Positions 45,891 through 48,680 of a stretch of 64,000 bases of DNA are shown piece by piece; the stretch's first letter is position 1; each line of letters opens with the position of its first letter. The notes beneath the pieces are model-generated. The model did no database searches. It was not told the DNA's origin and was given only the letters and a program-made list of their open reading frames with translations. Source of the stretch: Pseudohongiella spirulinae (GTDB lineage: Bacteria > Pseudomonadota > Gammaproteobacteria > Pseudomonadales > Pseudohongiellaceae). Location: the NCBI RefSeq assembly GCF_001444425.1, contig NZ_CP013189.1, positions 2,480,001 to 2,544,000 on the forward strand. The letters run 5' to 3'. A program made the translations under genes and the position numbers.

Positions 45891-47909
45891 TTAGTGAATA
45901 CGTCTCCAGTACTCACGGTTCAGCAACAGCGTCAATATGATCAGGATGGCCAGGAAACCCAGCACAAATACACCAATAGACTGTCGCTTCAGGCGCACTG
46001 GCTCGCCAATGTAGTAGAGGAAATTGACCAGATCATAAATCACCTTGTCAAACTCTTCCGGCGTCAGCTCGCCCGAGCCTTCAACATGACGCAAATCGCA
46101 CTCTTCGGGGGATTCAGCGTTATTGCTGCATATCACATCACCCTGCAAATCATACAGAACGTTCGGCATCCCCACATTGGCAAATACCTTGTTGTTAACG
46201 CCCCACACGCGACTGTCATCTTCATAGAAGGAGCGCATGTAGGTGTAGAGCCAGTCAGCACCACGCACCCGGGCAATCAGCGTCAGATCTGGCGGCACAA
46301 CACCAAACCAGTTGTTAGCCTGCTCGGCCTGCATGCTGTTGTCCATCAGATCACCGATCGCCTGATTGCCAAACGCCAGATTTTCCATCACCAGCTCATG
46401 CGGTACGCCCAGATCATCTGCAGTGCGCTCGTAACGTGCATACTGCAATGAGTGACAGGAATGGCAGTAGTTCATGTAGGTTTTCCAGCCATTCTGCAGT
46501 GACGCCTCATCACGCAGATCCATCTCCACATGATCCAGCGGAACATTCGAAGACTCAGCACCCACAGCTTTGAGCGGCAGACCAACCAGCACAGCCAGCA
46601 GCACCAGAGTGATCAACAACTGCTTGTTGGTGATCCAGCGCCCTGTTACGCGGGTCGGCTCCGGGAAGGTCTGCTCCTTTCTGGTGTACCAGGGCATCAG
46701 GAAGAAGAACAGGAAGTACAGCACTGTGCAGAACTGCGCCAGAGCAATACGTGCCGGGCTGGTGCCAAGCGTCCCGAGGTAGCCGAGAATCAGGAAAGAA
46801 GCAGTGAAAATCAACAATGCAATTCGGCTATACCAGCCTTTGTAGCGAATTGATTTCACCGGGCTCTTGTCCAGCCAGGGCAGAACAAACAGGATGGCGA
46901 TAGCGCCAAACATGACAATCATGCCCCAGAACTTGGCATCAATACCAAACAATGGCACGGTAACCGCACGCAGCATCGAGTAGAACGGCGTGAAGTACCA
47001 GACTGGCGGCACGTGTGCCGGTGTTACCAGGGGATTCGCTTCCTGGAAGTTTGGTGGCTCAAGGAAGTAGCCTCCCATTTCCGGCGCAAAGAACACGATA
47101 AAGCAGAATACAAAGAAGAATACCGAGATACCCACCATGTCATGGACAGTGTAGTACGGGTGGAAAGGCACACCGTCAACCGGGATACCGTTTTCATCTT
47201 TGTTTTTCTTGATTTCAATACCATCAGGGTTATTGGATCCGACTTCGTGCAGGGCCAGCAGGTGCAGCACAACAAGCGCGATCAGGATAATCGGAAGAGC
47301 AACAACATGCAGGGCAAAAAAGCGGTTCAGGGTGGCGCCGGAAATCAGGAAGTCACCACGCACCCAGATCAGCAGATCTTCACCAATGACAGGAATCGCA
47401 CCAACCAGCGACACGATAACATTCGCACCCCAGTAGGACATCTGACCCCAGGGCAGAACGTAACCCATGAAGCCTTCCATCATCAGAATCAGATAGATGG
47501 CCATGCCAAATACCCAGATCAGTTCGCGCGGCTTTTTATAGGAGCCGTACATCAGACCTCGGAACATATGCAGGTAGACCACAACAAAGAAGGCCGACGC
47601 GCCCGTGGAGTGGATGTAGCGAATAAGCCAGCCGAATTCCACATCACGCATGATGTATTCAACAGAGGCAAAGGCACCCTCAGCACTATTGGTGTAGTGC
47701 ATGGTCAGGAAAATACCGGAGACCAGCTGAATGACGAGAACAACCAGAGACAACACACCAAAGAAGTACCAGAAGTTGAAGTTCTTCGGCGCGTAGTATT
47801 TGCTCATGTGCTTTTCCCACGCTGTCATGATCGGCAAACGATCATTGGTCCAGTCGCGGAGGCCGACGAGTGAGGACACTATCCAGCCTTGTTTCTTAGT
47901 ATCGCTCAT
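45891..47909 (-). CDS. Fused cytochrome b / cytochrome c1 of the bc1 complex
   Basis: 672 aa in a single reading frame, where most gammaproteobacteria have petB and petC as separate genes. Residues 1-420 are cytochrome b: heme ligands His100/His114 and His201/His216, GSNNPDGIEI after the second pair, and the Qo-site region VWYFTPFYSMLRAV. A hydrophobic segment at about 428-450 (LLITLVLLAVLVGLPLKAVG) acts as an internal signal. Residues 451-672 are cytochrome c1: heme site CHSCH (482-486), axial Met in VGMPNVL (Met581), C-terminal anchor at about 644-663. A likely cleavage follows AVGA at 450. The Rieske gene is 1 bp upstream. Bradyrhizobium fbcH is a known precedent of a b-c1 polyprotein. Confidence 0.96.
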   Translation of the reverse strand: MSDTKKQGWIVSSLVGLRDWTNDRLPIMTAWEKHMSKYYAPKNFNFWYFFGVLSLVVLVIQLVSGIFLTMHYTNSAEGAFASVEYIMRDVEFGWLIRYIHSTGASAFFVVVYLHMFRGLMYGSYKKPRELIWVFGMAIYLILMMEGFMGYVLPWGQMSYWGANVIVSLVGAIPVIGEDLLIWVRGDFLISGATLNRFFALHVVALPIILIALVVLHLLALHEVGSNNPDGIEIKKNKDENGIPVDGVPFHPYYTVHDMVGISVFFFVFCFIVFFAPEMGGYFLEPPNFQEANPLVTPAHVPPVWYFTPFYSMLRAVTVPLFGIDAKFWGMIVMFGAIAILFVLPWLDKSPVKSIRYKGWYSRIALLIFTASFLILGYLGTLGTSPARIALAQFCTVLYFLFFFLMPWYTRKEQTFPEPTRVTGRWITNKQLLITLVLLAVLVGLPLKAVGAESSNVPLDHVEMDLRDEASLQNGWKTYMNYCHSCHSLQYARYERTADDLGVPHELVMENLAFGNQAIGDLMDNSMQAEQANNWFGVVPPDLTLIARVRGADWLYTYMRSFYEDDSRVWGVNNKVFANVGMPNVLYDLQGDVICSNNAESPEECDLRHVEGSGELTPEEFDKVIYDLVNFLYYIGEPVRLKRQSIGVFVLGFLAILIILTLLLNREYWRRIH

Positions 47910-48508
47910 TATGCGTTCACCTCGTCTTCACCAATCACAAGGATGTTGTCTGACTCGTAGTAATAGGGGGGAACTTCCATATTACGGGATGCCGGTGAAC
48001 CGTTGTACACACGGCCAGCCATATCGAACTTTGAACCATGGCATGGACAGTAGAATCCACCCTTCCAGTTCTCTTCAAATGGCTCGGGGCGAATGCTCAG
48101 ACGCGGAGTCGGAGAGCAGAACAGATGCGGACACAAGCCAATCAGCACCAGAACCTCCGGCTCACGCGAGCGATACGCATTGGTTGCGTACTCAGGCTGT
48201 TCGGGCTGGGCTGAATCCGGATCCTGTAACTGATCCGTGATGGTACCCAGTGCATCAAGTGCCGCTTGTGTGCGGCGTACCACAAATATGGGTCGTCCAC
48301 GCCAGGCTGGAATCGGACCCAGAATGCTGCCCTCTTCTATCCGACTGATATCAACCCTAACCGAAGCTCCCGCCGCGCGCGCTTTGGCGCTGGGATTCCA
48401 GGAACCGACGAAAGGCACAACTGCACCTACCACACCGGCTGCCCCTACGACCGAGGTTGACCCTAACAAAAACCGCCTGCGGCCAGAATCAGTACCGTCT
48501 TCACTCAC
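47909..48508 (-). CDS. petA: Ubiquinol-cytochrome c reductase Rieske iron-sulfur subunit
   Basis: 199 aa from the GTG at 48508, chosen because AGGAGA lies 7 bp upstream and VSEDGTDSGRRRFLLG is the family N-terminus; an ATG at 48556 would add 16 residues. A Tat-type twin Arg (GRRRFLLGS) precedes the anchor helix (VVGAAGVVGAVVPFVG). The 2Fe-2S boxes are CPHLFC and CPCHGS: all four ligands are kept, but box 1 departs from the usual CTHLGC at two positions. Stop overlaps the next gene's start by one base. First gene of the bc1 operon. Confidence 0.95.
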   Translation of the reverse strand: MSEDGTDSGRRRFLLGSTSVVGAAGVVGAVVPFVGSWNPSAKARAAGASVRVDISRIEEGSILGPIPAWRGRPIFVVRRTQAALDALGTITDQLQDPDSAQPEQPEYATNAYRSREPEVLVLIGLCPHLFCSPTPRLSIRPEPFEENWKGGFYCPCHGSKFDMAGRVYNGSPASRNMEVPPYYYESDNILVIGEDEVNA

Positions 48509-48680
48509 CGTGTATTCTCCTGAGCTTTGTCGTCTATCAAAAAGAACTGAGCCCACAACCCTCCGTTCGGGTGGGATGAGGACGAAAATCTGCTATCTGC
48601 TAATGCTGCTGTACTGCCGTTGTCTGGAATTCGCCTTCGGACTCAGACTTTGGAGTGGCGCAAACCGGCAAACGGGCTGA

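Follow-up and report, generated by a model that had tools for sequence, protein, structure and literature searches.

The window analyzed here, a 64,000-nucleotide stretch of the Pseudohongiella spirulinae genome, carries a gene in which cytochrome b and cytochrome c1 occupy one open frame, as in genes of the FbcH type. The fusion is the state of all sampled members of the family and occurs in a further 13 families of the order. The features of its junction suggest that its product is probably a precursor with an internal signal for the export of c1. The principle of such a fusion is already known, and what we add is its distribution, a form with a long linker, and an apparent fission of the fused gene in one family, which we consider the most interesting new element.

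The fused gene and its surroundings

The frame runs without interruption on the minus strand, from an ATG at 47909 to a stop codon at 45891 (Table 1). Pfam models matched the translation at residues 37-224 (Cytochrome_B, E 1.7e-67), 290-399 (Cytochrom_B_C, 6e-35), and, as the best stretch for Cytochrom_C1, 523-670 (8.4e-17). Eight residues were invariant among 23 aligned fused proteins (H100, H114, H201, H216, C482, C485, H486, and M581), and these we take to be the heme ligands of cytochromes b and c1. The stop codon of petA and the ATG of the fused gene have one base in common. Together, the heme-ligand residues and the adjoining Rieske subunit mark the gene as part of a proteobacterial cytochrome bc1 complex (petABC). 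The genes rpsI and rplM lie upstream of this region, while downstream, on the same strand, there is an sspA-like gene (289 bits, below the cut-off of 314), followed by sspB, which scored above its cut-off.

Table 1. Positions in the window of the fused gene, its parts, and the adjoining Rieske gene.
Feature	Position	Strand	Basis
Fused gene for cytochromes b and c1, 672 aa (FbcH type)	45891..47909	-	Open frame; Pfam models of both cytochromes
Cytochrome b part, residues 1-424	46638..47909	-	Pfam; alignment with 8smr_I
Junction, residues 425-451: linker and ninth hydrophobic segment 431-449, end KAVGA	46557..46637	-	Hydropathy, site conservation
Cytochrome c1 part with stop codon (residues 452-672)	45891..46556	-	8smr_J alignment; Pfam Cytochrom_C1
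Heme c motif CHSCH, residues 482-486	46452..46466	-	Motif; C482, C485, H486 invariant
Membrane anchor at the C-terminus of c1 (residues 645-663)	45921..45977	-	Hydropathy 3.1
Rieske iron-sulphur subunit (petA), directly upstream	47909..48556	-	TIGR01416 196.9 bits, cut-off 97.4

A hydropathy scan with a frame of 19 residues gave ten segments. Eight belong to cytochrome b, the ninth spans residues 431-449, and the tenth, at 645-663, is the c1 anchor. The scan is crude, and its eight cytochrome b segments match the known eight in number only; presumably, no true membrane helix lies at 164-182, and a helix near 100-118 was overlooked. The initial annotation had described a continuous 672-codon frame for both cytochromes, with four cytochrome b heme histidines, a hydrophobic segment ending in AVGA, the motif CHSCH, and a C-terminal anchor. 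This description was borne out in each of its elements, and the strand, which had been left unstated, is minus. As a separate observation, the Qo motif of the cytochrome b part reads PVWY, not PEWY (residues 302-305; 46995-47006, minus strand), and none of the papers listed in a literature search on this motif contained PVWY.

The genome is a single contig of 3,345,119 bases and contains one match to the fused gene. It also contains two matches to TIGR02227 (signal peptidase I) and one to TIGR00353 (named nrfE), all above cut-off; the latter we take to be CcmF.

Distribution of the fusion

We counted a gene as fused only on a frame read from stop to stop, because the length of an open frame can span a stop. 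In the same family, the fused frame was open in 24 of 24 genomes; in G005, the gene stands at the end of a contig and is visible from residue 115 onward. The nearest named relatives among the best 80 of 157 confirmed stretches were Pseudohongiella sp. O18 (90%) and P. nitratireducens (87%). Given that the frame is open in all 24 genomes, the fusion cannot be put down to chance or to an error in base calling. In one family genome that is 85% complete (G004), a second fragment corresponding to residues 1-140, with 96% identity, was seen beside the full fused gene (contig C7, 29984-30403).

At the level of the order, 116 genomes were searched and 110 matched, and the fusion was present in 40 of these, spread over 14 of 43 families (27 with a short linker and 13 with a long one). 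Among the other 70 matched genomes, those without a DNA reading have open frames of 449 aa or less among the matches listed. Of the 96 genomes searched in the class, 81 matched; 29 loci other than that of the window were read, and none of them was fused. The other 51 loci were judged split among the matches listed, with three less clear cases: G207 and G168 have long frames but separate c1 matches, and G167 is without a c1 match, again among the matches listed. In the phylum, 71 of 80 genomes matched and 33 were read as DNA, of which only one besides the window's own was fused. This one (G261, locus L299) is from another class and has a b-c1 fusion in a 706-aa frame, with a linker unlike that of the window gene. 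The remaining 38 genomes have frames of 549 aa or less among the matches listed.

A number of candidate fusions were rejected. The frames of G074 and G101 read 735 and 736, yet the genes are split. Among matches outside the order that seemed to be full-length, a stop between two frames was found in G214, G143, G202, G173, and G220, and likewise in G292, G256, G273, G267, G279, G275, G257, G260, and G233.

Reading through the junctions of relatives uncovered no stop or frameshift in the 24 family genomes searched and none among them with two genes, in agreement with what the initial annotation would lead one to expect. Its statement that gammaproteobacteria usually have separate petB and petC holds as the common state of the class, but it understated the extent of the fusion in the whole sampled family and in the 13 others of the order. 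In genomes of this kind, complex III could be miscounted when petB and petC are sought as two genes.

The junction and how it may be processed

The ninth hydrophobic segment has a hydropathy of 2.56, with three lysine or arginine residues before it and none after, and it runs into KAVGA at residues 447-451. Signal peptidase I is predicted to cut after Ala451, a likely position that refines the “near 450” of the initial annotation. The best-scoring solved relative of both parts of the fused protein is PDB 8smr, which we take to be the cytochrome bc1 of Pseudomonas aeruginosa. Residue 3 of its c1 (8smr_J) aligns to residue 458 of the fused protein; the chain begins at the equivalent of approximately residue 456, near the predicted cut, although the start of a chain does not necessarily coincide with the N-terminus of the mature protein.

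To place this site in context, we compared 82 distinct junctions, taken from 102 fused loci of which several were one genome found twice. As a sequence pattern, a permissive A-x-A-type site was present in all 82. The strict form, [AV]xA, was present in 76 and missing from six, against 39.4 expected from shuffled windows, about half of which have it by chance; related junctions are not independent. Behind other helices of the same proteins, the strict form was found in 34/82 (TM1) and 29/82 (TM7), but two further control places gave counts of 1 and 0. The pattern is suggestive of cleavage at fused junctions.

The reading that we favor, and hold to be probable, is that of a single FbcH-type precursor. 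The cytochrome b part would insert with its C-terminus in the cytoplasm, and the ninth segment, formerly the c1 signal peptide, would start the export of the c1 domain. A cut by signal peptidase I after Ala451 would free c1 (residues 452-672), which would be held in the membrane by its own C-terminal anchor, and the spent signal would remain on cytochrome b as an extra, ninth helix. Heme c would be attached to c1 by the Ccm system. The signal peptidase I and presumed CcmF matches noted above are in keeping with these two steps. The initial annotation had likewise proposed that a former c1 signal peptide serves as an internal export signal, and four observations support this idea: the A-x-A-type sites, the charges that flank the segment, the fact that internal starts are almost lost, and what looks like a fission in family f14 (the last two are treated below).

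The main rival is a permanent, uncut b-c1 subunit in which the ninth helix would be a structural linker that sets the topology. The median peak hydropathy of the ninth segment in fused junctions is above that of the signal peptides of split c1 proteins (2.53 vs 1.93), and c1 has a second anchor, so the topology would need no cutting. A further point against the cleaved precursor is that the uncharged run has a smaller median length in fused junctions (16) than in the signal peptides of split c1 proteins (19). However, an uncut linker sits poorly with the frequency of the strict site at fused junctions and with its absence just behind the helix in f14 (0/3), where c1 is a separate protein. We therefore think an uncut subunit improbable, if still the strongest competitor of a cleaved precursor.

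It is far less probable that translation also initiates within the gene, at the junction, and additionally yields c1 on its own. An ATG, GTG, or TTG behind a ribosome-site-like sequence is kept in 5/82 fused junctions, but 90/118 split loci have one (near-copies are included among the split loci), and the same rule found none at the junction of the window gene. In that gene, there is no in-frame ATG or GTG between Met405 and the ninth segment, and two TTG codons are found where the segment begins. Finally, it is scarcely credible that a faulty assembly erased a stop codon separating two genes; nothing was found in favor of this, and the same open frame, with a conserved linker, recurs throughout the family and in 40 of the 110 matched genomes of the order.

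The sequences around the junction also offer a route by which the fusion could have come about. In many split relatives, cytochrome b ends in RVTG or RVTM and c1 starts immediately after; in fused junctions, a conserved linker is followed by a helix that often ends in PLKAVGAE or similar. Of 118 split loci, 90 have a c1 start that overlaps the end of cytochrome b, and in 24 the two are no more than 20 bases apart; these counts use the start codon closest to the stop, which favors overlap. Split genes that overlap in this way could become fused by a small change of frame.

Long linkers and the history of the fusion

The 13 long-linker fusions among the 40 fused genomes of the order (L163-L165 and L168-L177) have 67-83 residues between the end of TM8 and RVT vs 14 in the window gene, or roughly 53-69 extra. 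By eye, the insert contains two hydrophobic stretches, and an even number of helices would mean that c1 stays outside. When the insert was compared with the TM7-8 hairpin in hhalign, the probability was 98 with the shared tail included. With that tail removed, the value against the TM7-8 of the same proteins was 55, and control slices gave 18, 0.4, 0.2, and 0.2. These values hint weakly at a duplicated TM7-8 hairpin as the possible origin of the insert. In the bc1 trees, long-linker genes are scattered among short-linker ones, with six changes between the two forms.

On whether the fusion arose once or twice, the bc1 trees place a split group between the two fused clades, but a single clade of all fused rows together with f14 is not rejected (AU p 0.149), nor is one without f14 (p 0.057), so either number of events may be right. 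The fewest changes between the fused and split states were three on the bc1 tree of 172 rows, four on the bc1 tree of 65 rows, with f44 placed outside clade B, and seven on the rpoB tree of 46 rows, where row L248 is bad. The rpoB tree also places the split families f27, f30, and f31 among the fused ones, with weak support.

Split genes and an apparent fission in family f14

Family f14 has separate petB and petC. The set consists of three genomes (L166 = G074, L167 = G101, and L178 = G036), with a fourth, G125, omitted for its masked bases. The cytochrome b of this family has a C-terminal tail of 43 aa with a helix like those of the fused linkers of clade B, and the separate c1 carries its own signal peptide of ordinary appearance. 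Against clade-B fused linkers, the tails gave a best local score of 76-83 and a mean of 49-55, compared with means of 19-20 against split c1 signal peptides; the best scores of shuffled tails had a mean of 32 and a maximum of 44-51. Without the RVTM-GG start, the match is weaker (best 53-59 vs a shuffled maximum of 48-51). While the stretch behind the helix lacks [AV]xA in all three, two of the three tails have an A-x-A triplet at the very C-terminus.

In the bc1 tree, f14 is nested in fused clade B at 99/94, and in the rpoB tree it groups with fused genomes (SH-aLRT 82 and 87); a tree constrained to exclude f14 from clade B is likewise not rejected, with an AU p of 0.095. The simplest reading of these comparisons is that the two genes of f14 arose by fission of a fused gene. 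Alternatively, cytochrome b may have gained the helix prior to a fusion. We give an even chance to a broader proposal, which includes the fission and in which the f14 genomes now encode directly what processing would otherwise produce: cytochrome b would keep the ninth helix of the spent signal without a cleavage site and as a working part, and c1 would have regained a signal peptide. The C-terminus of cytochrome b would then be a hot spot for fusion, fission, and insertion of a helix hairpin within one order. Taken together, the fused, re-split, and long-linker forms provide a natural experiment as to whether cytochrome b benefits from a signal helix left behind on it.

Comparison with known systems

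Among the papers listed in a literature search, which covered few subscription papers, there was no report of the fusion in Pseudohongiella or its order; this is not proof of its absence from the literature. The name fbcH is in use outside Bradyrhizobium, as an annotation label for a “cytochrome b/c1 subunit” (PMC12456017) and as a gene name in Acidithiobacillus (PMC10531304); the domain make-up is the same by name, and neither passage makes a statement on processing. For Bradyrhizobium japonicum FbcH, Thony-Meyer, James and Hennecke 1991 (PNAS 88:5001) is among the references of PMC6976685. Our survey suggests that a one-gene, two-protein route to a core respiratory enzyme is not confined to rhizobia.

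Among solved structures, the P. aeruginosa cytochrome b (8smr_I, 403 aa) is like the fused protein in that it aligns to residues 19-423. The P. aeruginosa complex is unlike it in having two chains, with a cytochrome b that stops before the ninth segment. Another parallel is FbcH of Bradyrhizobium japonicum, where one gene reportedly gives rise to both cytochromes b and c1 and the c1 signal is said to lie inside the precursor. The window gene shares with it the origin of b and c1 from one gene and differs in belonging to another lineage. By analogy, processing of the window gene's product most likely follows the Bradyrhizobium mode, with export by an internal signal, a cut after Ala451, and heme attachment by Ccm.
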